Positions 15,164 through 36,420 of a stretch of 64,000 bases of DNA are shown in pieces. The stretch spans positions 1,911,403-1,975,402 of the forward strand of contig NZ_CP051185.1 in the NCBI RefSeq assembly GCF_012516315.1. The letters are read 5' to 3'. Each line of letters begins with the position of its first letter. Position 1 is the stretch's first letter. The position numbers were made by a program, and so were the translations under genes. Below the pieces are notes generated by a model that saw only the letters and a program-made list of their open reading frames with translations, had not been told where the DNA came from and did no database searches. This stretch comes from Limnospira fusiformis SAG 85.79. GTDB taxonomy: Bacteria; Cyanobacteriota; Cyanobacteriia; Cyanobacteriales; Microcoleaceae.

Positions 15164-16173
15164 GAGGAAAAGTTAAGGGTGAGTTTTTGGTGTTTTTCGG
15201 CGTGGTGTTTTTGCAGGGTCGCCAATTGGCGATCAAGGTCTTCCAGTTGGGTTTTTATTTGTGCTAAAATCGGGTCAATTTCTCTGTGGTTGACCGGGAG
15301 ATATTGGCAAAGTTGACGATCGCGATCGTAATGGTGGCTGAGGTCGTCCCGAATAGTGACCACTTGTTTTTGGTATTGGTTACAGTCAGCGATCGCTTTT
15401 TTCAGTTCATTTTGTAGGCGGTCAAATTCCGCTTTTTCTTGTTGCAATTCTGCCAGGGTATCTGATAAAATATGGTTGAGTTTATCCCGTTCCGTTTGGG
15501 TAAGTGTTATCAATTCCGTGGCGATTTCCTTCGTCTCGATTTCCCGTTGATTTTGGCATCCTCGCAGTCTTTGAATTTCCGCTGCTAGGCGGGTTTGCTG
15601 TGCCGCCAGTTGGTCCTGTTGCTGTTGGAGGGTTTCCAGTTCTTGATATTGGGGTTGGAGGGTTTGCGATCGCTTTTCGATGTCTTCGCGTAGTTGGTCT
15701 AGGTCGGTATTTTGTAGTTCGGTTTCTATATGGTTTAATTGAGTCGCGAGGCTGTTTAATCGTGCCAATTCTGCCGCCGCCTCTTTTAACTGATTTTCCT
15801 GACTAAAAAGCTGATTAGCTGCCGCCAACAGTTCCGAAGTTTCTCCAGATATTTCCGCTAATTTTTGGGAGTCATTTGCCAGCTTTTCCGTCAGCTTGGG
15901 GGGGATATTTAGGGTGGCAAAATGAGGTTGCCAGGTATCCAGCAGAGAGAGTTGTTGTCTGAGAGTTTGGGAGAGAGCGATCGCCCAAGCGTCCAGAGTA
16001 TCCGGGTCCGAATTAGCCAGGTTTTCCAACACTTCTGGGGGGTAGAGATTTCCCCATAATTCTAGGGCGATTTGCACCAGTTTAAAAGGTAGGTCAATAT
16101 AATCATAATCCCACACATCCTGATCCGGCAATCTCTGGGCAATTTTAATTAAGGCTGCGATTTGTTCTTCCAT
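15160..16173 (-). CDS. Coiled-coil protein of unknown function
   Basis: A 337-residue protein. Residues 1-110 are mixed helical with an acidic WDYDYIDLPF stretch; from ~115 to 335 it is a nearly continuous coiled coil rich in Leu, Gln and Glu. No catalytic motif, signal peptide or membrane segment is visible. ATG at 16173 is preferred to the TTG two codons upstream. It is the first gene of a two-gene unit with the radical-SAM protein and is divergent from the second coiled-coil/AAA pair across 233 bp. It could be a scaffold or substrate of that group (inference). Confidence 0.75.
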   Translation of the reverse strand: MEEQIAALIKIAQRLPDQDVWDYDYIDLPFKLVQIALELWGNLYPPEVLENLANSDPDTLDAWAIALSQTLRQQLSLLDTWQPHFATLNIPPKLTEKLANDSQKLAEISGETSELLAAANQLFSQENQLKEAAAELARLNSLATQLNHIETELQNTDLDQLREDIEKRSQTLQPQYQELETLQQQQDQLAAQQTRLAAEIQRLRGCQNQREIETKEIATELITLTQTERDKLNHILSDTLAELQQEKAEFDRLQNELKKAIADCNQYQKQVVTIRDDLSHHYDRDRQLCQYLPVNHREIDPILAQIKTQLEDLDRQLATLQKHHAEKHQKLTLNFSS

Positions 16174-16184
16174 AGTCAAGCATT

Positions 16185-17988: not shown

Positions 17989-20520
17989 ATGGTTGAACGA
18001 ATTACCGAGCAATTGAATCTCCAAACAGGCGATCGCTTTCTGGTTTTGTACGGAACCAATAGCGGAGATGGCTTTTTTACTGACGATTTATTATTGTCAG
18101 ATATCGAACAGGTTTTGCATCGCTATTTACTAACCCAAGGCTTTAATCGTATCGTGTTCTATTCGGGAGTGAATAAGCTGTATTTTCTCGATTCTCAATC
18201 ACTCCAAAACGCCAGGGAACAGCCGACAACCTCGCCGCCACCTTCCCCGTCCGAAATGCGAACAAAAAGCGGCGGTCCTTTGGGGAAACGCCGTGGCTTA
18301 TTGAGACGAGAAACCCCTCCCGAACCGGAACCCCAACCCTCAGCAAATCGCCGTCCTGTGATGTCTGATATTCCATGTATCGGCTATTTTGAACACTTCA
18401 TGAAAGATACCCGCTATCAAAGTGCGATTATCTTTTCTGACGTGGAGGATTTGCGGATGTTTGAAAACCCGCGAGAACTGTTTGGGCGGATGGTCACTTG
18501 GGGAAGACTCCCCCCGACCAACCGCAATTTATGTGTGTTTATTTCCCACCATCATAGTTTACAACAGTTTCAAGATTTTTGCAACCATACAGGCTTTACT
18601 TATTTGGGAAATTGGCTGCAAAACATGAGCGATCGCCAATTTAATTTAGTGCGGGTGTCTACCCCCACCGAACCGGAGTTAGAAAGTCTGTGGGATTATT
18701 TTAGACTGGTTCACCAAAAACCGATAAATTGGAGCGATCGCCGCCGTTTAATCTCGGCTATGGCTGCCGAAAATCAACCCCTAAAGACATGGTATCATCG
18801 CTTTAATTCTGTGGCGGAATTATCCTTAAAAGTCGCCAAACAAAACCAGTGGTTATCGGGGGATGTCAGCGATATACCCGCCTTAAAACGCTTACATAAC
18901 TTGGTAGGTTTACAGAATGTTAAAACCGCCATCAACCAAAAAATCCTGTCATTATCTAAAGCTCAACAACGGCAACAACAAGGCATCAAGACCGACCCCC
19001 CTAGACTGCATTTAGTATTCAAAGGAAACCCCGGAACCGGGAAAACCACCGTGGCGAGATTAATGGGGGAAATTTATCGAGATTTAGGGTTATTGCGGCG
19101 GGGTCATGTAGTAGAAATTGGCGGGCGAGATTTGGTGGCGGGATATGTGGGACACACCGCAATTTTAACTAATGAAACAGTCGATCGGGCTTTAAATGGG
19201 GTATTGTTTATTGATGAGGCTTATAACCTCACTGAAGGGGGCGAAAATGACTGGGGAATGGAGGCGATTAATACCCTGTTAAAACGCATGGAAGATGAAC
19301 GGGGAAGGCTGGCGGTAATTGTAGCCGGATACCCGGAACTTATGGATAATTTTATCACATCTAACCCAGGTTTACAAAGTCGTTTTGCCACAGAAATTAT
19401 TTTCGATGATTATCAACCCTCCGAATTATTAACCATTTTCCGTCAACAGGTACAACGGGTTAAAAGTGCGATCGCTCCCGATTTAGAACCGCGTCTGGAG
19501 AACTTGTTCACCCAGATTTATGATAACCGAGACCGCAATTTTGGCAACGCCAGAGAGGTGGAAAAGTTATTTAATCTCATGGATGATTGTCACAGCGATC
19601 GCGTAATGAAACAGGGTTTAAATACCCTGACCGAACCCTTAAAAGTGGAGGATTTACCGCCAGTTTATCGGGAACTCTCCCAACGGGGAACCGCCGACGC
19701 AGAGAACCTAGAAAAACTCCTCGCCGAATTAGAAAACTTGACCGGGTTAGACTCGGTTAAACAGGATATCAAACAATTAATTAACACCCAAGCCGCGAAT
19801 CAAAAATTAGCCAGTTTAGGGATGTTAGCCAGTAATGAAATCGAAACCCGTCATTTATTATTTACTGGAAATCCCGGCACCGGAAAAACCACCGTCGCTC
19901 GTTTAATTGGCGAAATTTATCGAGCCTTGGGACTGTTAAAAAAGGGTCAATTTGTGGAAGTAGAGCGCAAAAAATTAGTCGGACAATATGTCGGACATAC
20001 CGCCGAAAAAACCGCCCAGGTGATTGAATCCGCCGTGGATGGGGTATTATTTATTGATGAAGCCTACTCCTTATCTCGTGGGGGAGATAGCCGAGATTTT
20101 GGACAGGAGGCGATCGATACTTTGGTTCCCATGATGGAAAATTATCGCGATCGCCTGGTGGTAATTTTAGCGGGATATTCGCGGGAAATGGTAGAGTTTC
20201 TCGACAGCAACTCCGGCTTAAAATCTCGCATTGCAAAAAAAATCGATTTTCCCGATTATAACGGTGCCGAAATGCACAGTATTTTTCTGGGAATGTGTCG
20301 GGAAAGCGGGCGAATTTGTCCCGATGATGTATCCACGCGGGTCAGGTCAATTATGGATTTTGCCTATCAAAATAGGGATGCAAATTTTGGCAATGGTCGC
20401 GATGTCCGCAATTTTTATGAACGGATGGTCAACAACTTAAAAAATCGCATCGTCCGGGACGAATTAAACGGGGAGGATATGATCACATTTACCTGTGAGG
20501 ATATCTCCAGTTGGGAGTAG
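17989..20520 (+). CDS. Double-AAA+ ATPase of the CbxX/CfxQ (SpoVK-like) type
   Basis: An 843-residue protein with an N-terminal ~290-residue domain of unknown type and two AAA+ modules of the CbxX group. Module one has Walker A GNPGTGKTTVAR (~345) and Walker B VLFIDEAYNL (~404); module two has the same Walker A at ~626 and VLFIDEAYSL at ~685. Both have NFGNAREVEK- or NFGNGRDVRN-type sensor regions with intact residues. Members of this group remodel protein complexes: Rubisco activase CbbX, and EccA of type VII secretion. The client here is unknown; the coiled-coil protein encoded upstream is the obvious candidate. A Pro/Arg-rich segment at ~75-125 looks disordered. Confidence 0.85.
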   Translation: MVERITEQLNLQTGDRFLVLYGTNSGDGFFTDDLLLSDIEQVLHRYLLTQGFNRIVFYSGVNKLYFLDSQSLQNAREQPTTSPPPSPSEMRTKSGGPLGKRRGLLRRETPPEPEPQPSANRRPVMSDIPCIGYFEHFMKDTRYQSAIIFSDVEDLRMFENPRELFGRMVTWGRLPPTNRNLCVFISHHHSLQQFQDFCNHTGFTYLGNWLQNMSDRQFNLVRVSTPTEPELESLWDYFRLVHQKPINWSDRRRLISAMAAENQPLKTWYHRFNSVAELSLKVAKQNQWLSGDVSDIPALKRLHNLVGLQNVKTAINQKILSLSKAQQRQQQGIKTDPPRLHLVFKGNPGTGKTTVARLMGEIYRDLGLLRRGHVVEIGGRDLVAGYVGHTAILTNETVDRALNGVLFIDEAYNLTEGGENDWGMEAINTLLKRMEDERGRLAVIVAGYPELMDNFITSNPGLQSRFATEIIFDDYQPSELLTIFRQQVQRVKSAIAPDLEPRLENLFTQIYDNRDRNFGNAREVEKLFNLMDDCHSDRVMKQGLNTLTEPLKVEDLPPVYRELSQRGTADAENLEKLLAELENLTGLDSVKQDIKQLINTQAANQKLASLGMLASNEIETRHLLFTGNPGTGKTTVARLIGEIYRALGLLKKGQFVEVERKKLVGQYVGHTAEKTAQVIESAVDGVLFIDEAYSLSRGGDSRDFGQEAIDTLVPMMENYRDRLVVILAGYSREMVEFLDSNSGLKSRIAKKIDFPDYNGAEMHSIFLGMCRESGRICPDDVSTRVRSIMDFAYQNRDANFGNGRDVRNFYERMVNNLKNRIVRDELNGEDMITFTCEDISSWE

Positions 20521-21947: not shown

Positions 21948-22014
21948 GCTCACCCAAATCACATTGATCGCCGTCGCTATCCGACATAAATTTAATATAA
22001 ATGGGACGCATTTA

Positions 22015-22766: not shown

Positions 22767-22778
22767 TTTTATCATTCC

Positions 22779-23446: not shown

Positions 23447-24436
23447 ATGGCGAAATGTCCTGTTTGTGAAACCGAATATACACCAAATGAGGTGGAAACC
23501 TGTTCGGTGTGTGGTTATGACCTGACACCCTATCCCCCTGTGATTGGTGGGATACCCTCCGGGTTTTTGGAGAAGGAGAAAAAACGCATTGCCGCCGCCA
23601 AGCGGGTTTGGCAATTGTCTCAGTCTCAGGTAGAGTCCGCACAGTTGATGGTCTCTCACCTGCAATCTCAGTTAGATGAGACCACCCGAAAAATTGACGG
23701 TTTTACCACTACTCAATCACGGCTAGAATCTCAGATAGAAGCGATCGCATCTCAACTCCAATCCCAGAATGAAGCGATCGCATCTCAATCCCAATCACGG
23801 CTAGAATCGCAGATAGAAGCGATCGCATCTCAACTCCAATCCCAATCGTCACAGATAGAAGCGATCGCATCTCAACTCCAATCCCAGAATGAAGCGATCG
23901 CATCTCAACTCGAGTCGATAACTGAAGCCGTGGCAGATACTCCCATCGTGTCTTATTCTGGTTTTGATTATAGCCAACTCAACAGATTATTGAAATCAGG
24001 CCAGTGGAAAGCTGCCGACGAAAAAACGGCTAAGATGATGTGTAGGGTGGCGGGAAAAACCCACGATGGATATTTAAACTATGATGATATCAAAAACTTT
24101 CCCTGCGAGGATTTGCGAATCATCGATGGTCTTTGGGTCAAACACAGCAGGGGACGCTTCGGGTTTAGTGTCCAGAAGCAAATTTACATCAATTGTGGAG
24201 GTAAGCCTGATGGAAGCTATCCAAAAGGTGATGATATATTAGAGCGGTATGCTGACCAGGTGGGATGGCGAGTTGGAAGGTCTTGGATTTTGAAGTCAGA
24301 TTGCACGTTTGCGGCGATTGCTCCCTGTGGCCATCTTCCTTTTTGGCCTTGGTTATACGAGTGGTATCAGGTAGGCCATTCATTGAAGTCTGTAGGAGTG
24401 CATTTGTTCTCTCGCGCACAGACTTGTCTACTGTAG
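23447..24436 (+). CDS. Zinc ribbon-coiled coil-GUN4 protein, paralogue 1
   Basis: A 329-residue protein. Residues 4-22 form a zinc ribbon (CxxC-x11-CxxC: KCPVCETEY...CSVCGYDL). Next come an EKEKKRIAAAKRVWQLSQ segment and a coiled coil of SRLESQIEAIASQLQSQ-like units (~85-160). A GUN4 domain spans ~168-297 (LLKSGQWKAAD, IKNFPCEDLRIIDGLWVKHS, RFGFSVQKQIYINCGG, GWRVG, GHLP). Authentic Gun4 binds porphyrins and stimulates Mg-chelatase; GUN4 domains joined to other modules occur in cyanobacteria without known function, so a tetrapyrrole role is not assumed. The final ~30 residues are hypervariable between paralogues. ATG 23447 is the start common to the family; upstream sequence is shared only with paralogue 5. 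Confidence 0.8.
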   Translation: MAKCPVCETEYTPNEVETCSVCGYDLTPYPPVIGGIPSGFLEKEKKRIAAAKRVWQLSQSQVESAQLMVSHLQSQLDETTRKIDGFTTTQSRLESQIEAIASQLQSQNEAIASQSQSRLESQIEAIASQLQSQSSQIEAIASQLQSQNEAIASQLESITEAVADTPIVSYSGFDYSQLNRLLKSGQWKAADEKTAKMMCRVAGKTHDGYLNYDDIKNFPCEDLRIIDGLWVKHSRGRFGFSVQKQIYINCGGKPDGSYPKGDDILERYADQVGWRVGRSWILKSDCTFAAIAPCGHLPFWPWLYEWYQVGHSLKSVGVHLFSRAQTCLL

Positions 24437-24692
24437 CATATAAACACTTCAGGCAGTCCCTAGTGGTGCTTTAATGAAATGTAACGCACCGTTGACCATT
24501 ACAATGTTAATCAAATGTCAACACCACTCCTACTCTCCATTGGCGGTGGGTTACGCACTCAACCCACCCTACGAAGTCTTACTTCTCCACTGGTGGTAGA
24601 AACTGGGTTTCTAGTTCCTCTCGGTGGGTTATAGTAGCATAAAGCCGGGTTTCTCTGCACCCGGTTTCTACGTCTTATCGGGGTTGAGAATT
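24437..24692. repeat. Trailer, one hairpin-repeat unit and GUN4-gene leader
   Basis: After the gene come the conserved trailer CACTTCAGGCAGTCCCTAG, a single unit of the ~119-bp hairpin repeat (24471-24575), and the leader TCTTACTTCTCCACTGGTGG with GGGTTTCT motifs, which recurs before paralogue 6 at 33232. Confidence 0.75.
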
Positions 24693-26207
24693 ATGGCGAA
24701 ATGTCCCGTTTGTGAAACCGAATATACACCAAATGAGGTGGAAACCTGTTCCGTGTGTGGTTATGACCTGACACCCTATCCCCCTGTGATTGGTGGGATA
24801 CCCTCCGGGTTTTTGGAGAAGGAGAAAAAACGCATTGCGGCAGCCAAGCGGGTTTGGCAATTGTCTCAGTCTCAGGTAGAGTCCGCACAGTTGATGGTCT
24901 CTCACCTACAGTCTCAGTTAGATGAAATGACCCGGAAAATTGACGGTTTTACCACTACTCAATCACGCCTAGAATCCCAGAATGAAGCGATCGCATCTCA
25001 ATCGCTATCACGGCTAGAATCTCAGGTCAAAGCGATCGCATCTCAATCGCTATCACGCCTAGAATCTCAGGTCAAAGCGATCGCATCTCAATCCCAATCG
25101 CTATCACGCCTAGAATCGCAGATAGAAGCGATCACATCTCAACTCCAATGCCAATCGTCACAGGTCAAAGCGATCGCATCTCAATCCCAATCGCTATCAC
25201 GCCTAGAATCGCAGGTCAAAGCGATCGCATCTCAATCCCAATCGCTATCACGCCTAGAATCGCAGATAGAAGCGATCGCATCTCAATCCCAATCGCTATC
25301 ACGCCTAGAATCGCAGGTAGAAGCGATCGCATCTCAATCCCAATCGCTATCATGGCTAGAATCTCAGGTCAAAGCGATCGCATCTCAATCCCAATCACGG
25401 CTAGAATCGCAGATAGAAGCGATCGCATCTCAATCCCAATCGCTATCATGGCTAGAATCTCAGGTCAAAGCGATCGCATCTCAACTCCAATGCCAATCGT
25501 CACAGATAGAAGCGATCGCATCTCAATCCCAATCACGGCTAGAATCGCAGATAGAAGCGATCGCATCTCAATCCCAATCACGGCTAGAATCGCAGATAGA
25601 AGCGATCGCATCTCAATCCCAATCACGGCTAGAATCGCAGATAGAAGCGATCGCATCTCAATCCCAATCACGGCTAGAATCGCAGATAGAAGCGATCGCA
25701 TCTCAACTCCAGTCGATAACTGAAGCCGTGGCAGATACTACCATCGTGTCTTCTTCTGGTTTTTTGTATACCGAACTCGACAGATTATTGAAATCAGGCA
25801 ACTGGAAAGCTGCCGACGAAGAAACGGCTAAGATGATGTTAGCGGTGGCGGGAAAAACCTCTAGGAGATATTTAGACGACGATGATATCAAAAACTTTCC
25901 CGGCGAGGATTTGCGAATCATCGATGGTCTTTGGGTCAAACACAGCAGGGGACGCTTTGGGTTTAGTGTCCAGAAGCAAATTTACATCAATTGTGGAGGA
26001 TTGCCTGTAGGAAACTATCCAGGTGATACAGCGTGGTGTCAGTTTTGTGACGAGGTGGCATGGCGATATAATGGGGATTACGTGGTCTGGTCTGATTGCA
26101 CGTTTTCCGCGACTGCTCCCCGCGGTCATCTCCCAAGTTATACCGGGCACTATAGTACTTTTACATCTCTTCTCTCGCGCACAGACTTGTTAACCTTTAA
26201 CATATAA
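24693..26207 (+). CDS. Zinc ribbon-coiled coil-GUN4 protein, paralogue 2 (long coiled coil)
   Basis: A 504-residue protein with the same order of parts as paralogue 1: zinc ribbon (Cys 4, 7, 19, 22), conserved linker, coiled coil (~85-350) and GUN4 domain (~353-485). The coiled coil is expanded to about twenty units of 14-17 residues such as AIASQSQSLSRLESQVK, each containing a HIP1 site in DNA. The C-terminus is SRTDLLTFNI: the family's conserved 3' DNA tail read in a different frame from paralogue 1, because the preceding variable segment is 36 bp long (0 modulo 3). GUN4 core residues such as FPGEDLRIIDGLWVKHS are kept. Function unknown; the zinc ribbon suggests binding of a protein or nucleic acid. 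Confidence 0.8.
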   Translation: MAKCPVCETEYTPNEVETCSVCGYDLTPYPPVIGGIPSGFLEKEKKRIAAAKRVWQLSQSQVESAQLMVSHLQSQLDEMTRKIDGFTTTQSRLESQNEAIASQSLSRLESQVKAIASQSLSRLESQVKAIASQSQSLSRLESQIEAITSQLQCQSSQVKAIASQSQSLSRLESQVKAIASQSQSLSRLESQIEAIASQSQSLSRLESQVEAIASQSQSLSWLESQVKAIASQSQSRLESQIEAIASQSQSLSWLESQVKAIASQLQCQSSQIEAIASQSQSRLESQIEAIASQSQSRLESQIEAIASQSQSRLESQIEAIASQSQSRLESQIEAIASQLQSITEAVADTTIVSSSGFLYTELDRLLKSGNWKAADEETAKMMLAVAGKTSRRYLDDDDIKNFPGEDLRIIDGLWVKHSRGRFGFSVQKQIYINCGGLPVGNYPGDTAWCQFCDEVAWRYNGDYVVWSDCTFSATAPRGHLPSYTGHYSTFTSLLSRTDLLTFNI

Positions 26208-26578
26208 GCACTTCTAAGCACTTCAGGCAGTTGTCAAGTTCTTGTTTTCGGCAACTTTTTCACAGAAACATCGGCACCTCCCCCTATTCTATGCCTGGCA
26301 CTCCACTCAAAGCGGTAGCCATTGGCTTTGACAAACTTTTAGGCCACTTCTGTAACCTCTGTACTTTCGCGTTTCCGGAATATTCCCAGGAAGTTTCATC
26401 TGTCCGGGAGATGTCTTTTTCCCACTGAGTGAAGAAACCCGGTTTCTATCAGGGTTATAGGTAAATACCGAAATATGTCCGTCGTAACCGAGTTTCTCAG
26501 TTCCTCTCGGTGGGTTATCATAGCATAAAGCCGGGTTTCCCTACACCCGGTTGTCGTGATTTATCAGGGTTGGGAATG
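26208..26578. repeat. Trailer with degenerate coding-like remnant (copy 1) and CCCGGTTT repeats
   Basis: From CACTTCAGGCAGTTGTCAAG onward this 371-bp gap matches 34513-34780 with scattered changes. On the minus strand it contains a broken frame with GKKTSPGQMKLPGNIPET. The right part has GAAACCCGGTTTCT palindromes and the GUN4-gene leader. No intact gene. Confidence 0.65.
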
Positions 26579-28153
26579 ATGACGAAATGTCCTGTTTGTG
26601 AAACCGAATATACAGAAAATGAGGTCGAAACCTGTTCCGTGTGTGGTTATGACCTGACCCCCTATCCCCCTATTGACGAGATACCGTCCGAGTTGTGGGA
26701 GAAGGAGAAAAAACGCATTGCCGTCGCCAAGCGGGTTTGGAAATCGTCTCAGTCTCAGGTAAAGTCCGCACAGTTGATGGTCTCTCACCTGCAGTCTTAT
26801 TTATATGAGACGACCCGGAACATTTACGGTTTTACCCAATCCCAATCTCAACTTCCATCCCAGAGTCAAGCGATCGCATCTCAATCCCAATTGCTATCAC
26901 GCCTAGAATCCCAGAGTCAAGCGATCGCATCTCAATCCCAATTGCTATCACGCCTAGAATCTCAGGTCAAAGCGATCGCATCTCAACTTCCATCCCAGAG
27001 TCAAGCGATCGCATCTCAACTTCCGTCCCAGAGTCAAGCGATCGCATCTCAACTTCCGTCCCAGAGTCAAGCGATCGCATCTCAACTTCCATCCCAGAGT
27101 CAAGCGATCGCATCTCAACTTCCATCCCAGAGTCAAGCGATCGCATCTCAACTCCAATCCCAGAGTCAAGCGATCGCATCTCAACTCCAATCCCAGAGTC
27201 AAGTGATCGCATCTCAACTCCAATCCCAGAGTCAAGCGATCGCATCTCAACTCCAATCCCAGAGTCAAGTGATCGCATCTCAACTCCAATCCCAGAGTCA
27301 AGCGATCGCATCTCAATCCCAATTGCTATCACGCCTAGAATCCCAGGTAGAAGCGATCGCATTTCAACTCCCATCCCAGAGTCAAGCGATCGCATCTCAA
27401 TCCCAATTGCTATCACGCCTAGAATCCCAGAGTCAAGCGATCGCATCTCAACTCCCATCCCAGAGTCAAGCGATCGCATCTCAACTCCCATCCCAGAGTC
27501 AAGCGATCGCATCTCAACTCCCATCCCAGAGTCAAGCGATCGCATCTCAACTCCCATCCCAGAGTCAAGCGATCGCATCTCAACTCCCATCCCAGAGTCA
27601 AGCGATCGCATCTCAACTCGACGAGTCGATAACTGAAGCCGTGGCAGACATTACTTCCATCGTGTCTTCATCCTCTGGTTTTGATTATAGCCAACTCGAC
27701 AGATTATTGAAATCAGGCCAGTGGGAAGCAGCCGACGAAGAAACGACTAAGATGATGTGTAGGGTGGCGGGAAAAACCTCTAGGAGATATTTAGACGACG
27801 ATGATATCAAAAACTTTCCCGGCGAGGATTTGCGAATCATCGATGGTCTTTGGGTCAAACACAGCAGGGGACGCTTCGGGTTTAGTGTCCAGAAGCAAAT
27901 TTACATCAATTGTGGAGGATTGCCTGATGGACGCTATCCAGGTGATACAATATGGGAGCGCTATTGCGGGGAGGTGGGATGGCGAGTGAATGGGTCGTAT
28001 ATATCATGGTCTGATTGCACGTTTTCGGAGGCAGCTCCCCTGGGCCATCTTCCCGCCCGTTTTGTTGGGGTTGGTTGGTGGTTGGGTTTTGGTGTGGGAC
28101 TGGTAAGGCGTAGGTTAGCACTCTTCTCTCGCGCAGAGACTTGCAGACTGTAG
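26579..28153 (+). CDS. Zinc ribbon-coiled coil-GUN4 protein, paralogue 3 (11-residue repeat)
   Basis: A 524-residue protein. The zinc ribbon is KCPVCETEYTENEVETCSVC. The coiled coil (~80-350) consists of about 21 units, mostly exact 11-residue copies (LPSQSQAIASQ or LQSQSQAIASQ; 33 bp), an undecad period unlike the 14-17 residue units of its neighbours. The GUN4 domain begins near residue 362. The GUN4 region is followed by a G/T-rich variable stretch encoding VGWWLGFGVGLVRRRLAL and then FSRAETCRL. Two ATGs (26576 and 26579) are possible; the second aligns with the family start. Linker residues (EIPSELWEKEKKRIAVAKRVW) are more diverged than in the other paralogues, making this the most distinct member. 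Confidence 0.8.
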   Translation: MTKCPVCETEYTENEVETCSVCGYDLTPYPPIDEIPSELWEKEKKRIAVAKRVWKSSQSQVKSAQLMVSHLQSYLYETTRNIYGFTQSQSQLPSQSQAIASQSQLLSRLESQSQAIASQSQLLSRLESQVKAIASQLPSQSQAIASQLPSQSQAIASQLPSQSQAIASQLPSQSQAIASQLPSQSQAIASQLQSQSQAIASQLQSQSQVIASQLQSQSQAIASQLQSQSQVIASQLQSQSQAIASQSQLLSRLESQVEAIAFQLPSQSQAIASQSQLLSRLESQSQAIASQLPSQSQAIASQLPSQSQAIASQLPSQSQAIASQLPSQSQAIASQLPSQSQAIASQLDESITEAVADITSIVSSSSGFDYSQLDRLLKSGQWEAADEETTKMMCRVAGKTSRRYLDDDDIKNFPGEDLRIIDGLWVKHSRGRFGFSVQKQIYINCGGLPDGRYPGDTIWERYCGEVGWRVNGSYISWSDCTFSEAAPLGHLPARFVGVGWWLGFGVGLVRRRLALFSRAETCRL

Positions 28154-28316
28154 CATATAAGCACTTCAGGTGAAGAAACCCGGTTTCTATCAGGGTTATG
28201 GGTAAATCCGAAAGATGTCCGTTTCTACCCGGTTTCTAGTTCCTCTCGGTGGGTTATCATAGCATAAAGCCGGGTTTCCCTGCACCCGGTTGTCGTGATG
28301 TATCGGGTTGGGAATG

Positions 28317-29246
28317 ATGGAGAAATGTCCCGTTTGTGAAACGGAATATACACCAAATGAGGTGGAAACCTGTTCGGTGTGTGGTTATGACCTGACACCC
28401 TATCCCCCTGTGATTGATGGGATACCGTCCGGGTTTTTGGAGAAGGAGAAAAAACGCATTGCGGCAGCCAAGCGGGTTTGGCAATTGTCTCAGTCTCAGG
28501 TAGAGTCCGCACAGTTGATGGTCTCTCACCTGCAATCTCAGTTAGATGAGACCACCCGGAAAATTGACGGTTTTACCACTACTCAATCACGGCTAGAATC
28601 ACAGATAGAAGCGATCGCATCTCAACTAGAATCCCAGAGAAAAGCGATCGCATCTCAACTAGAATCCCAGAGAAAAGCGATCGCATCTCAACTCCAATCC
28701 CAATCGTCACAGATAGAAGCGATCGCATCTCAACTCGAGTCGATAACTGAAGCCGTGGCAGACATTACTCCCATCGTGTCTTCTTCTGGTTTTGACTATA
28801 CCGAACTCGACAGATTATTGAAATCAGGTGAGTGGAAAGCAGCCGACCAAGAAACGACTAAGATGATGTGGAGGGTGGCGGGAAAAACCAGGGGATATTT
28901 ATACAACGATGATATCAAAAACTTTCCCTGCGAGGATTTGCGAATCATCGATGGTCTTTGGGTCAAACACAGCAACGGACGCTTCGGGTTTAGTGTCCAG
29001 AAGCAAATTTACATCAATTGTGGAGGATTGCCTGATGGAAGCTATCCAGGTGATACAATATGGGAGCGCTATTGCGGGGAGGTGGGATGGCGAGTGAATG
29101 GGTCGTATATATCTAGGTCTGATTGCACGTTTTCGGCGGCAGCTCCCCTGGGCCATCTTCCCGGAATGGCGATGGATGAGTATTGGGGGGTTTTTTTGGA
29201 AAGTGGGGTTGCACTCTTCTGTCGCGCACAGACTTGTAAACTGTAG
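28317..29246 (+). CDS. Zinc ribbon-coiled coil-GUN4 protein, paralogue 4 (short coiled coil)
   Basis: A 309-residue protein, the shortest intact paralogue. Zinc ribbon (EKCPVCETEY), linker, only four AIASQ units (~80-145), and a GUN4 domain (~155-285) with NFPCEDLRIIDGLWVKHSNG and GWRVNGSYI. The variable segment encodes GMAMDEYWGVFLESGVAL and contains runs of six G and seven T; the conserved tail is read as FCRAQTCKL, in the same frame as paralogues 1 and 3. The family start is the second ATG of the ATGATG pair. The leader is of the GGGTTTC type shared with paralogues 2, 3 and 6. Confidence 0.8.
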   Translation: MEKCPVCETEYTPNEVETCSVCGYDLTPYPPVIDGIPSGFLEKEKKRIAAAKRVWQLSQSQVESAQLMVSHLQSQLDETTRKIDGFTTTQSRLESQIEAIASQLESQRKAIASQLESQRKAIASQLQSQSSQIEAIASQLESITEAVADITPIVSSSGFDYTELDRLLKSGEWKAADQETTKMMWRVAGKTRGYLYNDDIKNFPCEDLRIIDGLWVKHSNGRFGFSVQKQIYINCGGLPDGSYPGDTIWERYCGEVGWRVNGSYISRSDCTFSAAAPLGHLPGMAMDEYWGVFLESGVALFCRAQTCKL

Positions 29247-29272
29247 CATATAACCACTTCAGGCAGTCCCTA

Positions 29273-30842
29273 GTGGTGCTTTAATCAAATGTAACGCACC
29301 GTTGACCATTACAATGTTAATGAAATGTCAACACCACTCCTACTCTCAATTGGCGGTGGGTTACGCACTGAACCCACCCTACGAAGGAGTAGGGTGCGTT
29401 AATGAAATGTAACGCACCGTTGACCATTACAATGTTAATGAAATGTCAACACCACTCCTACTCTCCATTGGCGGTGGGTTACGCACTCAACCCACCCTAC
29501 GAAGGAGTAGGGTGCGTTAATGAAATGTAACGCACCATTGACCATTACAATGTTAATGAAATGTCAACACCACTCCTACTCTCCATTGGCTGGCGGTGGG
29601 TTACGCTACGCTAACCCACCCTACGAAGGAGTAGGGTGCGTTAATGAAATGTAACGCACCGTTGACCATTACAATGTTAATGAAATGTCAACACCGTTCA
29701 TGCTCTCAATTGGCTGGCGGTGGGTTACGCTACGCTAACCCACCCTACGAAGGAGTAGGGTGCGTTAATGAAATGTAACGCACCGTTGACCATTACAATG
29801 TTAATGAAATGTCAACACCACTCCTACTCTCCATTGGCGGTGGGTTACGCACTCAACCCACCCTACGAAGAAGTAGGGTGCGTTAATGAAATGTAACGCA
29901 CCGTTGACCATTACAATGTTAATGAAATGTCAACACCGTTCATGCTCTCAATTGGCTGGCGGTGGGTTACGCACTCAACCCACCCTACGAAGAAGTAGGG
30001 TGCGTTAATGAAATGTAACGCACCGTTGACCATTACAATGTTAATGAAATGTCAACACCGTTCATGCTCTCAATTGGCTGGCGGTGGGTTACGCACTCAA
30101 CCCACCCTACGAAGAAGTAGGGTGCGTTAATGAAATGTAACGCACCGTTGACCATTACAATGTTAATGAAATGTCAACACCGTTCATGCTCTCAATTGGC
30201 TGGCGGTGGGTTACGCACTCAACCCACCCTACGAAGAAGTAGGGTGCGTTAATGAAATGTAACGCACCGTTGACCATTCAAATGTTAATGAAATGTCAAC
30301 ACCACTCCTACTCTCCATTGGCGGTGGGTTACGCACTCAACCCACCCTACGAAGGAGTAGGGTGCGTTAATGAAATGTAACGCACCGTTGACCATTCAAA
30401 TGTTAATGAAATGTCAACACCGTTCATGCTCTCAATTGGCTGGCGGTGGGTTACGCACTCAACCCACCCTACGAAGAAGTAGGGTGCGTTAATGAAATGT
30501 AACGCACCGTTGACCATTCAAATGTTAATGAAATGTCAACACCACTCCTACTCTCCATTGGCGGTGGGTTACGCACTCAACCCACCCTACGAAGGAGTAG
30601 GGTGCGTTAATGAAATGTAACGCACCGTTGACCATTCAAATGTTAATGAAATGTCAACACCACTCCTACTCTCCATTGTTAATGAAATGTCAACACCACT
30701 CCTACTCTCAATTGGCGGTGGGTTACGCTACCCTAACCCACCCTACGAAGGAGTAGGGTGCGTTAATGAAATGTCAACACCGTTGACCATTACAATGTTA
30801 ATGAAATGTCAACACCGTTCATCATTACCATGTCAGGAGTAG
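29273..30842. repeat. ~119-bp hairpin tandem repeat array, about 12 units
   Basis: Each unit begins GAGTAGGGTGCGTTAATG, forms a hairpin with arms GGTGCGTTA/TAACGCACC, continues TTGACCATTACAATGTTAAT and CAACACC, and ends with a second hairpin, arms GGTGGGTT/AACCCACC, and CCTACGAAG. Starts of the GGTGCGTTAATG motif are near 29392, 29510, 29634, 29757, 29876, 29999, 30119, 30240, 30358, 30480, 30598 and 30757. Two subtypes alternate: CACTCCTACTCTCCATTGG and CGTTCATGCTCTCAATTGG. The loop of the second hairpin is either ACGCACTC or has TACGC inverted as TACGCTACGCTA. No gene is supported here. Confidence 0.9.
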
Positions 30843-30931
30843 AGCGATCGCATTTTTTCCCCCACTTTCCCAGAGTTGGAATTAACCGTCGATGAAGTAT
30901 TGACAGCGAGTGGCATTCGCGAGTTATAATA
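30843..30931 (+). repeat. Uma2 3'-tail direct repeat, copy 4
   Basis: Begins AGCGATCGCATTTTTTCCCC and ends GAGTTATAATA. It is followed, as at 23361, by GCCACCCACTATAGCTATAC and a GUN4 paralogue, which shows that this tail and the gene downstream were duplicated as one block. Confidence 0.9.
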
Positions 30932-31016
30932 GATTGAATAGTGCCACCCACTATAGCTATACTTGTGATGAGTGTCACCATTCCACGGTTTCTACGTCTT
31001 ATCGGGGTTGAGAATC

Positions 31017-31208
31017 ATGGCGAAATGTCCCGTTTGTGAAACGGAATATACACCAAATGAGGTGGAAACCTGTTCCGTGTGTGGTTATGACCTGACACCC
31101 TATCCCCCTGTGATTGGTGGGATACCCTCCGGGTTTTTGGAGAAGGAGAAAAAACGCATTGCCGCCGCCAAGCGGGTTTGGCAATTGTCTCAGTCTCAGG
31201 TAGAATAG
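31017..31208 (+). CDS. GUN4 paralogue 5, detached zinc-ribbon part (63 codons)
   Basis: Identical at the start to the other paralogues (zinc ribbon C4-C7-C19-C22 and the linker to LSQSQVE), then stopped by a TAG where relatives have a serine codon. A second in-frame TAG follows at 31233. The peptide could fold as a lone zinc ribbon. It is in the same frame as the ORF that starts at 31251. Confidence 0.5.
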   Translation: MAKCPVCETEYTPNEVETCSVCGYDLTPYPPVIGGIPSGFLEKEKKRIAAAKRVWQLSQSQVE

Positions 31209-31250
31209 GCACAGTTGATGGTCTCTCACCTGTAGTCTTACGGAGATAAA

Positions 31251-32237
31251 ATGACTCAGCCAATTGACGGTTTTACCACTACTCAATCACGCCTAGAATC
31301 GCAGATAGAAGCGATCGCATCTCAACTTCAATCCCAATCGTTACAGATAGAAGCGATCGCATCTCAATCCCAATCACGGCTAGAATCGCAGATAGAAGCG
31401 ATCACATCTCAACTAGAATCGCAGATAGAAGCGATCGCATCTCAACTCCAATCCCAATCACGCCTAGAATCGCAGATAGAAGCGATCGCATCTCAACTAG
31501 AATCCCAGAGAAAAGCGATCGCATCTCAACTCCAATCCCAATCACGCCTAGAATCGCAGATAGAAGCGATCGCATCTCAACTAGAATCCCAGAGAAAAGC
31601 GATCGCATCTCAACTAGAATCGCAGGTCAAAGCGATCGCATCTCAACTCCAATCCCAATCACGCCTAGAATCGCAGATAGAAGCGATCGCATCTCAACTC
31701 GAGTCGATAACTGAAGCAGTGGTAGATACTCCCATCGTGTCTTCTTCTGGTTTTGATTATACCGAACTCGACAGATTATTGAAATCAGGCCAGTGGAAAG
31801 CTGCCGACGAAGAAACGGCTAAGATGATGTTAGCGGTGGCCCGACAAACCCAACGGGGATATTTAGACGAGGATGATATCAAAAACTTTCCCTGCGAGGA
31901 TTTGCGAATCATCGATGGTCTTTGGGTTAAACACAGCAGGGGACGCTTCGGGTTGAGTGTCCAGAAGCAAATTTACATCAATTGTGGAGGATTGCCTGAT
32001 GGAAGCATACCAAGTGATACAATATGGGAGCGCTATTGCGGGGAGGTGGGATGGCGAGTGAATGGGTCGTATATATCTAGGTCTGATTGCACGTTTTCGG
32101 CGGCGGCTCCCCGTGGCCATCTTCCCGTGGGGGGGGGGTTTGTATGTTATTGTGGGTGGTTTAGCGGGTTAGGGCGTGGGGGGGTTTACATTATATCATC
32201 TTCTCTCGCGCACAGACTTGTAACCTGTAGCATATAA
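31251..32237 (+). CDS. GUN4 paralogue 5, coiled coil-GUN4 part
   Basis: A 328-residue ORF that resumes the paralogue after two in-frame stops, starting MTQPIDGFTTTQ. The ATG at 31251 is preceded by GGAG 5 bases upstream in sequence that differs from the other paralogues, so an independent start is plausible. The coiled coil has about ten AIASQ units and the GUN4 domain begins near residue 163. The variable C-terminal stretch has runs of ten and seven G. The tail is read as SLAHRLVTCSI, the third frame. The product would lack the zinc ribbon. Confidence 0.65.
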   Translation: MTQPIDGFTTTQSRLESQIEAIASQLQSQSLQIEAIASQSQSRLESQIEAITSQLESQIEAIASQLQSQSRLESQIEAIASQLESQRKAIASQLQSQSRLESQIEAIASQLESQRKAIASQLESQVKAIASQLQSQSRLESQIEAIASQLESITEAVVDTPIVSSSGFDYTELDRLLKSGQWKAADEETAKMMLAVARQTQRGYLDEDDIKNFPCEDLRIIDGLWVKHSRGRFGLSVQKQIYINCGGLPDGSIPSDTIWERYCGEVGWRVNGSYISRSDCTFSAAAPRGHLPVGGGFVCYCGWFSGLGRGGVYIISSSLAHRLVTCSI

Positions 32238-32257
32238 CCACTTCAGGCAGTCCCTAG

Positions 32258-33235
32258 TGGTGCGTTAATGAAATGTAACGCACCGTTGACCATTACAATG
32301 TTAATGAAATGTCAACACCACTCATAACTCATACTCTCCATTGGCGGTGGGTTACGCTACGCTAACCCACCCTACGAAGGAGTAGGGTGCGTTAATGAAA
32401 TGTAACGCACCATTGACCATTACAATGTTAATGAAATGTCAACACCACTCCTACTCTCCATTGGCTGGCGGTGGGTTACGCACTCAACCCACCCTACGAA
32501 GGAGTAGGGTGCGTTAATGAAATGTAACGCACCATTGACCATTACAATGTTAATGAAATGTCAACACCGTTCATGCTCTCAATTGGCTGGCGGTGGGTTA
32601 CGCTACGCTAACCCACCCTACGAAGGAGTAGGGTGCGTTAATGAAATGTAACGCACCATTGACCATTACAATGTTAATGAAATGTCAACACCGTTCATGC
32701 TCTCAATTGGCTGGCGGTGGGTTACGCTACGCTAACCCACCCTACGAAGGAGTAGGGTGCGTTAATGAAATGTAACGCACCATTGACCATTACAATGTTA
32801 ATGAAATGTCAACACCGTTCATGCTCTCAATTGGCTGGCGGTGGGTTACGCTACGCTAACCCACCCTACGAAGGAGTAGGGTGCGTTAATGAAATGTAAC
32901 GCACCATTGACCATTACAATGTTAATGAAATGTCAACACCACTCCTACTCTCCATTGGCGGTGGGTTACGCTACGCTAACCCACCCTACGAAGGAGTAGG
33001 GTGCGTTAATGAAATGTAACGCACCATTGACCATTACAATGTTAATGAAATGTCAACACCACTCCTACTCTCCATTGGCGGTGGGTTACGCTACCCTAAC
33101 CAACCCTACGAAGGAGTAGGGTGCGTTAATGAAATGTAACGCACCATTGACCATTACAATGTTAATGAAATGTCAACACCACTCCTACTCTCCATTGGCG
33201 GTGGGTTACGCTACCCTAACCAACCCTACGAAGTC
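32258..33235. repeat. ~119-bp hairpin tandem repeat array, about 8 units
   Basis: The same family as 29273-30842, with starts of GGTGCGTTAATG near 32258, 32385, 32506, 32627, 32752, 32877, 32999 and 33119. It sits where paralogue 1's trailer has a single unit, so the copy number changed after duplication of the block. Most units here have the TACGCTACGCTA loop variant. Confidence 0.9.
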
Positions 33236-33348
33236 TTACTTCTCCACTGGTGGTAGAAACTGGGTTTCTAGTTCCTCTCGGTGGGTTATAGTAGCATAAA
33301 GCCGGGTTTCCCTGCACCCGGTTGTCGTGATGTATCGGGTTGGGAATG

Positions 33349-34512
33349 ATGGAGAAATGTCCCGTTTGTGAAACCGAATATACACCAAATGAGGTGGAAA
33401 CCTGTTCCGTGTGTGGTTATGACCTGACACCCTATCCCCCTGTGATTGGTGGGATACCCTCCGGGTTTTTGGAGAAGGAGAAAAAACGCATTGCCGCCGC
33501 CAAGCGGGTTTGGCAATTGTCTCAAAAACGCATTGCGGCAGCCAAGCGGGTTTGGCAATTGTCTCAGTCTCAGGTAGAGTCCGCACAGGCGATGGTTTCT
33601 CAGTTGCAGTCTCAGTTAGATGAGACCACCCGGAAAATTGACGGTTTTACCACTACTCAATCACGGCTAGAATCTCAGATAGAAGCGATCGCATCTCAAC
33701 TCCAATCCCAGAATGAAGCGATCGCATCTCAATCGCAATCACGGCTAGAATCGCAGATAGAAGCGATCGCATCTCAACTCCAATCCCATAATGAAGCGAT
33801 CGCATCTCAACTCCAATCACGGCTAGAATCGCAGATAGAAGCGATCGCATCTCAACTCCAATCCCAATCGTCACAGATAGAAGCGATCGCATCTCAACTC
33901 CAATCCCAATCGTCACAGAATGAAGCGATCGCATCTCAATCCCAATCACGGCTAGAATCGCAGATAGAAGCGATCGCATCTCACCTCAAATCCCAGAGAA
34001 AAGCGATCGCATCTCAACCTAAGCAGATTTCAAAACCAGTGCCAGATACTCGCATCCTGTCTTCTTCTGGTTTTGATTATAGCCAACTCAACAGATTATT
34101 GAAATCAGGCCAGTGGAAAGCTGCCGACGAAGAAACGGCTAAGATGATGTTAGCGGTGGCGGGACAAACCGGGAGATATTTAGACGACGATGATATCAAA
34201 AACTTTCCCTGCGAGGATTTGCGAATCATCGATGGTCTTTGGGTCAAACACAGCAACGGACGCTTCGGGTTTAGTGTCCAGAAGCAAATTTACATCAATT
34301 GTGGAGGTAAGCCTGATGGAAGCTATCCAGGTGATACAATATGGAAGCGGTATTGTGACGAGGTGGGATGGCGAGTGAATGGGTCGTATCTATCATTAAT
34401 CACGTTTTCGGCGGCGGCTCCCCGGGGCCATCTACCCTTCGGTTGGCGTAAGGTGAGGGTTATGGGCGGTTCAGCTTCTCTCGCGCACAGACTTGTAACT
34501 TGTAGCATATAA
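33349..34512 (+). CDS. Zinc ribbon-coiled coil-GUN4 protein, paralogue 6
   Basis: A 387-residue protein: zinc ribbon, linker, coiled coil (~105-225, about ten AIASQ units) and GUN4 domain (~237-360). The 14-residue linker KRIAAAKRVWQLSQ is present twice in a row. The first copy has the GCCGCCGCC codon variant seen in paralogues 1 and 5, the second the GCGGCAGCC variant of paralogues 2 and 4, as expected from unequal crossing-over between two family members. The segment before GUN4 (PKQISKPVPDTRILSS) differs from the ITEAVADT of the others. The C-terminus is FGWRKVRVMGGSA and then SLAHRLVTCSI. Confidence 0.8.
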   Translation: MEKCPVCETEYTPNEVETCSVCGYDLTPYPPVIGGIPSGFLEKEKKRIAAAKRVWQLSQKRIAAAKRVWQLSQSQVESAQAMVSQLQSQLDETTRKIDGFTTTQSRLESQIEAIASQLQSQNEAIASQSQSRLESQIEAIASQLQSHNEAIASQLQSRLESQIEAIASQLQSQSSQIEAIASQLQSQSSQNEAIASQSQSRLESQIEAIASHLKSQRKAIASQPKQISKPVPDTRILSSSGFDYSQLNRLLKSGQWKAADEETAKMMLAVAGQTGRYLDDDDIKNFPCEDLRIIDGLWVKHSNGRFGFSVQKQIYINCGGKPDGSYPGDTIWKRYCDEVGWRVNGSYLSLITFSAAAPRGHLPFGWRKVRVMGGSASLAHRLVTCSI

Positions 34513-34815
34513 CCACTTCAGGCAGTTGTCAAGTTCTTGTTTTCGGCAACTTTTTCACAGAAACATCGGCTTTTTCCTTATGGGGTGGCTTTGACCAACT
34601 TTTGGGCGACTTCTGCAACCTGATAACTTTCTATATCCGGGATATTCCCAGGAAGTTTCATCTGTCGGGGAGATGTATTTTTCCCACTGAGTGAAGAAAC
34701 CCCGTTTCTATCAGGGTTATGGGTAAATACGGAAAGATGTCGGTAGTAACTGGGTTTCTGAAGCCGATCGCATCTATAATATGAATAGCCCTGCATCCAC
34801 AGTCAAAAACCCGCG
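34513..34815. repeat. Trailer with degenerate coding-like remnant (copy 2)
   Basis: A relative of 26208-26460. On the minus strand a 27-codon frame starts MKLPGNIPDIESYQVAEVAQ and ends KLVKATP; the other copy has broken this frame. I cannot assign a family. CCCGTTTCTATCAGGGTTAT and a HIP1-like core close the segment before the Hsp70-like gene. Confidence 0.6.
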
Positions 34816-36420
34816 ATGGCATCATATAAAATCGGTCTGGACTTCGGCACCACCAACTCCACTATATCCTACCTGGAAAACGGCGAACCGGTCGCCTTTA
34901 AATATGGCGGACAACAATCAATTCCCTCCTTCATCGCCTACGAAGACGACGGCTATATCGACATCGGAAAAGCGGCTAGACAAGCAGCAGCCAACGACCC
35001 GCAACTAGAAAGTTACGGTAACTTTAAAATGGACTTGCCGCTAACGGAAAACTTTGCCAATAATTACTCATCCCAACATACCCCCATCACCGTTACCACC
35101 GACTACCTGCGACAACTCCTCCTCTTCCCAGAAAATACCTACAGCTTCCGCCGCCAACAGGGGGAAATCGAGGGTTTGGTGGTGTCGGTGCCGGAAATTT
35201 GGCAGCGAGATATCTACAACCGGGGACGGGAAAACCTGCAAACTTTAATTGCCCAGAATTTGGGACTAGAAAAACAACTGATTCAACTGGTGAGTGAACC
35301 GGTGGCAGCCGCCGCCTATTACGCCTGGGAAACCCAACGCCGACACCAACGGGAAAATCAGGAACCTTTCCAAGGTAATCTCCTCGTTTGCGATATGGGT
35401 GGGGGAACTTTTGATGTCAGTTTGTGCCGCCTTTATGGAGACAAAAAGGTTGAGGTTTTGTACTTCGACGGAGAAGGCGATCGCGGTTTAGACTCAGCCG
35501 GGGTAGCCTTCGATCGCCGTTGTGTTATCCAAGCCTACCAACAAAAAAACCGCACAGAACCCGACCTCCACAGCCAGGAATTTATGCACCTCCTACAGAC
35601 CTTTGAAACGGTCAAAATCGAGGGGCATGACCGATACACCAGAAAACTCAAAAACTACTGCAAAAGCCCTTCAGACTTCGCAGAAGCCACGCTCTATAGC
35701 TTTTCTAGTGGCTATACCATCACCAACGGGCAAGTTTACCAAGCCTTCCAGCCGATCGCCGAGGGAATTTGCCGAGTATTAGAACGGGTAAATCAGTGGA
35801 TGGCTAAACATCAGCAAGAATGCGATCGCATTTTTTTAGTGGGGGGATTTTGTCAGTTTTACCTAGTGCAAAAAACCATCCTAGATGCCCTAAAAATAAC
35901 GGAGACAGACCCCCGAGTTGATAATGATTTTAACCTGATTCAGAGTGCCTTTGCCATTTCCTACGGTGCTTGTTTAATCGCCAATGGTTTAGTCCAACCC
36001 AGCGAAACCTACATCCACACTATCGGTATTGTGGTGGATATAATCACGGCTTCTATGGAAGTAGAAAAAACATTTATTCCCATCATTGAAGGAGGCACAA
36101 ATTTAGACGACCTCGCCTCGGTATGCTTGGCGAATATCCCCCCTCTGGAAGCATTCCACGACACCCCAGAGGTGATATTAGGGGTGATTCCCCAATCCAA
36201 GGGACCAATTTTTAAAAAGGTTTTACCGGATACGGTCAAACTCCCAATCAGCGCCACCTCAGAAAAATGGCGGGTGGGAATGCGGGTGAACCGTTCCCAA
36301 GTAGCTTATTTGGCGATCGTCTCGGTGGGGGGAAAGCGAAAAGTTGAATATGAACTGGGAAATATCATCGCGCAAATGTTCCCAGGTTTTGTCATGCGTG
36401 AGGACGAATTTATCAACTGA
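34816..36420 (+). CDS. Hsp70/DnaK-like actin-fold ATPase
   Basis: A 534-residue protein with the Hsp70 nucleotide-binding motifs: phosphate-1 IGLDFGTTNSTISY (5-18), LVSEPVAAAAYYAW (~160-173, connect-1), phosphate-2 LLVCDMGGGTFDVSLC (~193-208) and the adenosine motif IFLVGGFCQFYLV (~340). The last ~130 residues are not a canonical DnaK substrate-binding domain, so this is a divergent Hsp70 relative, not the housekeeping chaperone. The ATG at 34816 begins the conserved MASYKIGLDFGTTNS. No neighbour shares its strand closely. Similar divergent Hsp70s occur with AAA ATPases and coiled-coil proteins in bacteria, so a former link with the group at 14570-20520, now split by the GUN4 block, is possible (inference). 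Confidence 0.85.
   Translation: MASYKIGLDFGTTNSTISYLENGEPVAFKYGGQQSIPSFIAYEDDGYIDIGKAARQAAANDPQLESYGNFKMDLPLTENFANNYSSQHTPITVTTDYLRQLLLFPENTYSFRRQQGEIEGLVVSVPEIWQRDIYNRGRENLQTLIAQNLGLEKQLIQLVSEPVAAAAYYAWETQRRHQRENQEPFQGNLLVCDMGGGTFDVSLCRLYGDKKVEVLYFDGEGDRGLDSAGVAFDRRCVIQAYQQKNRTEPDLHSQEFMHLLQTFETVKIEGHDRYTRKLKNYCKSPSDFAEATLYSFSSGYTITNGQVYQAFQPIAEGICRVLERVNQWMAKHQQECDRIFLVGGFCQFYLVQKTILDALKITETDPRVDNDFNLIQSAFAISYGACLIANGLVQPSETYIHTIGIVVDIITASMEVEKTFIPIIEGGTNLDDLASVCLANIPPLEAFHDTPEVILGVIPQSKGPIFKKVLPDTVKLPISATSEKWRVGMRVNRSQVAYLAIVSVGGKRKVEYELGNIIAQMFPGFVMREDEFIN

Follow-up and report, generated by a model that had tools for sequence, protein, structure and literature searches.

GUN4 domains have been described in several settings. 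In the canonical protein, Arg214 is a porphyrin contact (PMC8967248), and the N219G substitution in the LxNxLR motif abolishes the binding of bilin, not that of porphyrin (PMC10156173). GUN4 domains on kinases, caspases, trypsin and TIR proteins are viewed as tetrapyrrole sensors (PMC7159879), and the accessory domains of cyanobacterial Ser/Thr kinases include GUN4, WD40, DUF323 and pentapeptide repeats (PMC2176072). In the conflict systems of the MoxR-vWA and DO-GTPase types (Kaur et al. 2020, PMC7159879), conserved NTPases are accompanied by effector or recognition domains that vary, GUN4 among them; Hsp70 and zinc ribbons occur in some of these systems, and cyanobacteria almost entirely lack the GTPase-centric ones. 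In cyanobacterial kinases, C-terminal lectin domains are targets of diversity-generating retroelements (PMC7517822). We analyzed a stretch of 64,000 nucleotides of Limnospira fusiformis SAG 85.79 (contig NZ_CP051185.1, positions 1,911,403 to 1,975,402; the window), in which positions 23447-34512 hold an array of genes that join a zinc ribbon, a coiled-coil rod and a GUN4 domain. Each GUN4 domain is followed by a variable tail and by a conserved 3' element of about 48 bp, and the array lies between genes for an AAA+ ATPase and an Hsp70-like ATPase. The arrangement resembles a recognition system whose end is hypervariable, and we propose, as a reading that is plausible but falls a little short of probable, that the array is a set of interchangeable recognition subunits of a conserved AAA+/Hsp70 locus.

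The array copies share the GUN4 fold and core residues with the canonical proteins of Synechocystis (sll0558, PDB 1y6i) and Thermosynechococcus (1z3x), but they lack the LxNxLR end, carry a variable tail and are mounted on a ribbon and a rod. The same kind of tail and 3' element was found on GUN4-bearing Ser/Thr kinases; the ten element-bearing genes scanned were all of signalling type, eight encoding kinase-GUN4 and two trypsin-GUN4 proteins. In contrast to the kinases, the array copies have a rod and no kinase and are arrayed inside the AAA/Hsp70 locus. The two kinase-GUN4 genes of the window genome do not have the element. DUF323 is presumably the FGE-sulfatase domain, and the kinase accessory set thus resembles the set of domains found on ribbon-rod proteins. 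Unlike the MoxR-vWA systems, the AAA protein here is of the SpoVK/CbbX type, and a scan of 11 window neighbours found no vWA, no GAP1 and no DO-GTPase with GAP1. Near the ribbon-rod gene of genome G008 there is a DO-GTPase2 match slightly above the cut-off, and G041 has one below it. Retroelements also produce hypervariable C-terminal ends of signalling proteins, but they keep the length of the variable region, a defining feature that the tails lack, and phase variation switches genes on and off. The tails described here are free in length and frame, and no template or linked reverse transcriptase was found in the places searched.

A whole-genome search found 13 GUN4 domains in the closed 6.42-Mb window genome. 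The six in the array lie on the forward strand and score 125.8-134.0 bits against Pfam PF05419 (cut-off 29.2); all six thus match the GUN4 profile, on which the first-pass annotation had made its proposal of six ribbon-rod-GUN4 genes depend. The single-strand array stood, but the count of whole genes did not, since copy 5 is not an intact member. The intact copies (1-4 and 6) have, in order, a CxxC-x11-CxxC ribbon, a basic helix start, a rod, GUN4 and a tail. The ribbon motif is present in all six copies, as had been claimed, but the Zn_Ribbon_1 profile gave 14.7-18.4 bits, under the Pfam cut-off of 25. The six copies are:

Copy 1, 23447..24436, forward strand: zinc ribbon, short rod (71-residue repeat region) and GUN4; variable tail from 24341.
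Copy 2, 24693..26207, forward strand: zinc ribbon, long rod (255 residues) and GUN4; variable tail from 26136.
Copy 3, 26576..28153, forward strand: zinc ribbon, longest rod (265 residues) and GUN4; variable tail from 28055.
Copy 4, 28308..29246, forward strand: zinc ribbon, shortest rod (56 residues) and GUN4; reading frame from TTG, with ATG at 28317; tail from 29163; used for the AlphaFold model.
Copy 5, 31017..32237, forward strand: ribbon reading frame from 31017 to the TAG at 31206-31208, and rod-GUN4 reading frame at 31251-32237; tail from 32127.
Copy 6, 33340..34512, forward strand: ribbon with a duplicated 14-residue block, rod (126 residues) and GUN4; reading frame from TTG, with ATG at 33349; tail from 34438.

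Copy 5 is interrupted by two in-frame TAG codons between ribbon and rod, and its rod-GUN4 frame restarts at ATG 31251 with GGAG ahead of the start; a stretch of about 30 bases at the break, which contains this GGAG, is unlike copy 4. In copy 6, a 42-bp block in the basic helix ahead of the rod is duplicated almost exactly (33482-33566). The spaces between copies 4 and 5 and between copies 5 and 6 are filled by tandem repeats of period 118-124 with inverted-repeat units (29275-30678 and 32259-33233; 11.6 and 8 copies), and a related 179-bp repeat with overlapping repeated open reading frames lies upstream of the array (20635-21353). The corresponding locus of a sister species, Arthrospira sp. 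PCC 9108 (CP066886.1), has nine GUN4 copies. Because the array is syntenic there (among the matches listed) and the tail DNA of four matched copies is 0.97-1.00 identical, it is more than a chance arrangement. In PCC 9108, the counterpart of copy 1 (s5) has a tail shortened by a stop, and s2 is a ribbon-rod gene in which, by eye, a hydrophobic end replaces GUN4. Of 31 plasmid records with a match, none covers 80% of the copy-4 protein in one place.

The variation is concentrated at the 3' end. Among the window paralogues divergence increases towards the end of the gene: synonymous distances are 0.12 for the ribbon, 0.08 for the N-terminal half of GUN4 and 0.32 for its C-terminal half, and the tail has reached saturation. 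The cores of copies 3 and 4 are 97% identical over 240 bp, while their tails are 0.58 identical against a random-pair mean of 0.48. A wider comparison, in which the element-bearing rows were sorted by their end peptides and 30 of 59 were used, gave the following values: at a core identity of 80-90% the tails of element-bearing GUN4s were 33% identical (16 pairs) versus 72% in an element-free family (25 pairs), and at a core identity of at least 90% they were 70% (8 pairs) versus 97% (14 pairs). The first-pass annotation had suggested that rod and tail are both varied; this is borne out, and the tail variation is much stronger and wider than was seen then. Exchange of tail cassettes was considered and rejected; clearly similar tails occurred only where the cores were at least 0.96 identical, apart from weak partial matches.

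The tails are free in length and mostly stay open in the GUN4 frame. Their length is 24-265 nt in 81 records (of 84 rows), the longest having doubled or displaced elements, and the remainders modulo 3 are divided 33, 29 and 19. The sister genes L034 and L035 (genomes G029 and G058) have cores 98.8% alike and tails that are a net 5 bases apart; the element is therefore reached in frame 1 in one gene and in frame 0 in the other, and it closes both. The identity and composition comparison, which kept 57 of 58 sites, showed the tails to be G/T-rich (G 0.385 and T 0.315, versus 0.275 and 0.262 in the core). Of the 53 distinct tails among these 57, in which Trp makes up 8% and Gly 18% of the residues, 50 are open in the GUN4 frame, compared with 16 and 20 in the other frames, 20 in shuffled sequences and 24 under a first-order Markov model.

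Behind each tail stands the element, with the consensus TCTTCTCTCGCGTCGAGACTTGTAGACTGTAACATATAAGCGTTTCAG, whose three frames translate as LLSRRDL, SSLASRLVDCNI and FSRVETCRL, each followed by a stop. The elements of the array are:

Copy 1, 24405..24452, forward strand: three-frame-stop element, met in frame 2.
Copy 2, 26168..26215, forward strand: element met in frame 0.
Copy 3, 28122..28169, forward strand: element met in frame 2.
Copy 4, 29215..29262, forward strand: element met in frame 2.
Copy 5, 32199..32246, forward strand: element met in frame 1.
Copy 6, 34474..34521, forward strand: element met in frame 1.

Overall, 84 of 92 distinct element sites have a GUN4 domain within 300 bp upstream, and 78 of these 84 reading frames are open into the element. 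The three frames are used 29, 19 and 36 times (chi-square 5.2 against equal use, p 0.07). The 92 sites combine GUN4-driven and element-driven searches; in the element-driven set, 35 of 40 sites follow GUN4, although this set repeats some sites of the conservation analysis and 20 of its regions were hand-picked from the phylum hits, mostly with 0-1 mismatches and with the genes not known beforehand. Among the eight sites without an upstream GUN4, L119 is a poor match by eye, and the other seven may be remnants of decayed genes. The element occurs in 55 of 98 relatives (19-base core, at most 2 mismatches; 3 hits for the reversed control) and in at least 59 of 386 genomes and 31 of 143 genera of the phylum (23 bases, at most 3 mismatches; 1 hit for the reversed control). 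Of 72 GUN4 domains gathered earlier, 37 have it; among these 72 it was not found at the canonical gene L001, in the L002 family or at the PCC 9108 array copies s1, s3 and s4. L002, a ribbon-GUN4 protein of about 285 residues present in many genomes of the same family, has no HIP1 rod (see below) and a conserved tail. Viral contigs gave no exact match to a 20-base core of the element. Two tandem elements 51 bp apart stand behind one GUN4 gene in L190 (about bases 1591-1690), and in L043, L025 and L175 two GUN4 domains follow each other, the first reading through its own element, or an altered form of it, into the second.

The element is conserved as DNA. In 719 pairs with a core identity below 60%, four-fold sites were 33% identical and the first 32 bp of the element 78%; element identity was equal for same-frame and different-frame pairs, while the cores of the same genes evolve as proteins. 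Stops in all three frames were found in 42 of the 53 elements versus 7.1 in shuffles. Up to base 39, where the longest frame has its last stop, most positions are strongly conserved; conservation is partial at bases 43-48 (62-83%) and then drops. Since the strong conservation ends at about base 39, these data fit an element that acts as a three-frame cap: in one frame or another, nearly every base alters the protein, and frame changes between lineages would hold the DNA still. The partial conservation of bases 43-48 beyond the stops hints at a second reading that also fits, a cis-acting site that would guide the process of tail change. It is conceivable, if doubtful, that the element is the cis-acting anchor of a targeted mutator. 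The 3' ends of GUN4 genes across cyanobacteria would then be rewritten as far as the element, through insertions, deletions and G/T-rich synthesis, and the element would double as the any-frame cap; the array would be a receptor repertoire on adjustable rods, read out by the AAA/Hsp70 machine.

Conservation past the last stop, and equal conservation of the element in all frames, would also be expected if the element were an mRNA or DNA regulatory site and the tails were protein loops drifting freely between two fixed ends, and tails held open in the GUN4 frame fit this explanation equally well. However, a single consensus-folding test gave no shared RNA fold, the nine sources searched contained no Rfam match, and neither the frequent three-frame stops nor the retention of tails by the element-free GUN4 family is explained by it. 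We regard this explanation as possible but doubtful.

The GUN4 part was compared with the canonical domain. The AlphaFold model of copy 4 (26 sequences) has a mean predicted local distance difference test score (pLDDT) of 89.3 and a predicted template modelling score of 0.58. It shows a small ribbon with short strands in the zinc-ribbon region, one helix at residues 43-153 (pLDDT block means of 86-97 to residue 140 and 74-81 at the helix end) and a C-terminal domain that folds like GUN4, with a weak stretch at 281-300 and a final helix at 293-309; the tail starts at residue 286. All 14 PDB matches of this model with E below 0.001 in Foldseek were GUN4. The tails begin at the position of the canonical bilin motif LxNxLR, which follows GHLP. 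This motif is present in L001, elsewhere in the window genome, and absent in all six array copies; a loose form of it occurs in one of the 84 element-bearing GUN4s. The position of Phe196 is Cys in copies 1-5 and Ile in copy 6, as read by eye from the alignment of copy 4. A role outside chlorophyll synthesis, also put forward in the first-pass annotation, is likely, with the canonical L001 elsewhere in the genome and the array copies devoid of LxNxLR. A PADLOC match of PD-T4-6 to GUN4 covered only positions 270-428 of the 450-position model; we took it as a kinase-GUN4 model and not as a sign of defence.

In an alternative reading, the copies would sense tetrapyrroles as GUN4 usually does, and their tails would merely tune affinity. 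The fold and the family profile match agree with such a role, as do the sensor role assigned to other GUN4-bearing signalling proteins (PMC7159879) and the porphyrin binding kept by N219G when bilin binding is lost (PMC10156173). On the other hand, the whole motif, including the equivalent of the porphyrin contact Arg214 (PMC8967248), is missing in 6 of 6 copies, the Phe196 position has changed, and a single ligand leaves a different tail on each copy unexplained. We therefore consider this alternative unlikely.

The rods extend from about 4 AIASQ-type units in copy 4 to 21 in copy 3, in agreement with the range of 4 to about 21 first noted. The units are in frame and mainly of 11, 14, 15 and 17 residues. 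The AIA units are coded GCG ATC GCA in 61 of 61 cases (AIT and VIA units lie outside this count) and contain the palindrome GCGATCGC, which we take to be the cyanobacterial HIP1 palindrome, whereas the serine codon four places before AIA uses four synonyms (28, 18, 7 and 7 of 61). Because the AIA codons are fixed while the nearby serine codon varies, the rods are, as judged from their codons, HIP1 minisatellites translated as helix. Matches of the rods to the Effector-associated domain and to other coiled-coil profiles were judged to be low-complexity chance. A 214-residue open reading frame on the reverse strand (26967-27611) runs through the repeats of the copy 3 rod and is probably a by-product of the repeat units.

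The array is the variable component of a rare locus, which also encodes an AAA+ ATPase, an Hsp70, two coiled-coil proteins and a radical-SAM protein. In the window these are:

AAA+ ATPase, SpoVK/CbbX type, 843 residues, 17989..20520, forward strand: core gene of the locus.
Divergent Hsp70-like ATPase, 534 residues, 34816..36420, forward strand: core gene of the locus.
cc502, coiled-coil-rich protein (coiled coil by eye), 502 residues, 16407..17915, forward strand: frequent partner.
cc339, coiled-coil-rich protein, 339 residues, 15160..16179, reverse strand: frequent partner.
NrdG-like radical-SAM protein, 197 residues, 14570..15163, reverse strand: frequent partner, overlapping cc339.

The AAA protein scored over the cut-off for SpoVK and near CbbX; cc502 gave no match in Pfam and NCBIfam. 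AAA and Hsp70 co-occur in the same 8 of 386 cyanobacterial genomes of a phylum sample. Among 98 relatives, a long AAA match (>500 residues) was found in 17 genomes and Hsp70 in 16, all inside those 17; six shorter AAA matches, in five other relatives, were excluded. The corresponding probabilities are about 1e-16 and 2e-17 in a calculation that ignores shared ancestry. Conservation of the neighbouring genes extends to loci in which the array is not preserved. In G094, which belongs to another family, an AAA gene (60% identity over 840 residues) and an Hsp70 gene (64% over 532) match those that flank the window array and enclose ribbon-rod-WD40 genes, and cc339 comes next. Across 18 genomes (the window's own and 17 others with locus stretches, some of which stop at contig ends), cc339 was found in 16, the radical-SAM protein in 15 and cc502 in 10; in 13 of the genomes, AAA or Hsp70 shares its stretch with a ribbon-rod gene. 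The rods at AAA/Hsp70 loci carry GUN4 in this genus, WD40 in G094, FGE-sulfatase in G003, G026 and G051, or nothing recognised, and ribbon-rods on other contigs also carry pentapeptide repeats (G065 and G093). In G175, cc339 is found within a 1316-residue protein whose start reads, by eye, like a STAND-type NTPase. A search of the open-access literature turned up no description of the array, the AAA/Hsp70/radical-SAM locus or the 3' element.

Uma2, XisH and two XisI genes lie at 21230-23209. The stretch with XisH and XisI (21841-23265) lies beside the array in the window and, 97% identical, within the array in PCC 9108; therefore that stretch or the array was rearranged. Membership of Uma2 and XisHI in the set is accordingly not supported, the recurrent partners in the other genomes being AAA, Hsp70, cc502, cc339 and the radical-SAM protein. 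An nSTAND1-WD40 protein of 1717 residues (9169-14322) adjoins the radical-SAM gene.

The proposal of interchangeable recognition subunits is based, among other findings, on the ribbon-rod module, which is shared with proteins bearing other C-terminal domains at orthologous loci. We infer both the function of the copies, as intracellular recognition proteins with frame-free hypervariable ends, and the source of their variation. The ribbon would dock onto a common partner of the locus, and the rod, lengthened by in-frame minisatellite units, would set reach or assembly. The tail, at the canonical tetrapyrrole-contact position, would determine what is recognised, which would give the copies a sensor role. 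Whatever the frame, the element would add a short cap peptide and then a stop, so that tail indels of any length would be tolerated and the tail could change without loss of the protein. AAA and Hsp70 would convert recognition into a response, probably stress or conflict signalling.

Several observations weigh against this proposal. The ratio of non-synonymous to synonymous substitution (dN/dS) is about 1 in the N-terminal half of GUN4 among the window paralogues and therefore gives no support there for recent purifying selection. Copy 5 is broken, and in PCC 9108 two rods are frameshifted, one tail is shortened and Hsp70 contains two stops, for which assembly errors are possible; together with the dN/dS near 1, these points allow partial decay. 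Since matched copies of the two Arthrospira species keep their tails nearly unchanged, change is not fast on that scale. The element is on many GUN4 genes outside the locus and so does not tie the tails to AAA/Hsp70; a variable tail is a property of a wide class of GUN4s, and the link of tail and AAA/Hsp70 is thus specific to this genus in the genomes examined. The WD40 and FGE-sulfatase versions need no element. Finally, in G040, G059, G065, G067 and G093 the AAA, Hsp70 and ribbon genes are either widely separated or placed on separate contigs. Contig ends explain some of these cases, but not G093, in which the parts lie well inside three different contigs, and the parts are likewise scattered in G065.

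Some of these points are what would be expected if the array and its rods arose by repeat expansion and gene conversion under little selection and were heading to decay, an outcome to which the HIP1 minisatellite rods, the broken copy 5, the dN/dS near 1, the frameshifted rods of PCC 9108 and the long tandem repeats between genes could all belong. Yet the ribbon has a dN/dS of 0.25 when window copies are compared and of 0.11 for the matched copies of the two species (from few changes), five of six reading frames are intact through rods of up to 21 units, and synteny and partners are shared with a distant family, which makes decay rather improbable. That the tails are variable regions of a diversity-generating retroelement is very improbable: their 3'-end position, a conserved DNA flank on the 3' side only and the diversified lectin domains of cyanobacterial kinases (PMC7517822) recall such elements, but tail length is free, the 19-bp element core occurs in the window genome only at the six copies (at most 2 mismatches) and no template copy was found, and no open reading frame above 250 residues with a YxDD reverse-transcriptase-type motif was found near five of eight orphan elements. 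The window genome has 57 RVT_1 matches, counted as profile matches.

We know of no diversity system that has a hypervariable coding end ignoring frame together with a three-frame stop signal conserved as DNA. The analysis also suggests a rare AAA/Hsp70/radical-SAM locus with exchangeable recognition arms, which our literature searches did not turn up, and the expansion of GUN4 paralogues, so far unexplained, becomes testable. Should the tails define recognition, the GUN4 fold of a chlorophyll regulator would be a scaffold for a receptor repertoire across kinases, proteases and rods.

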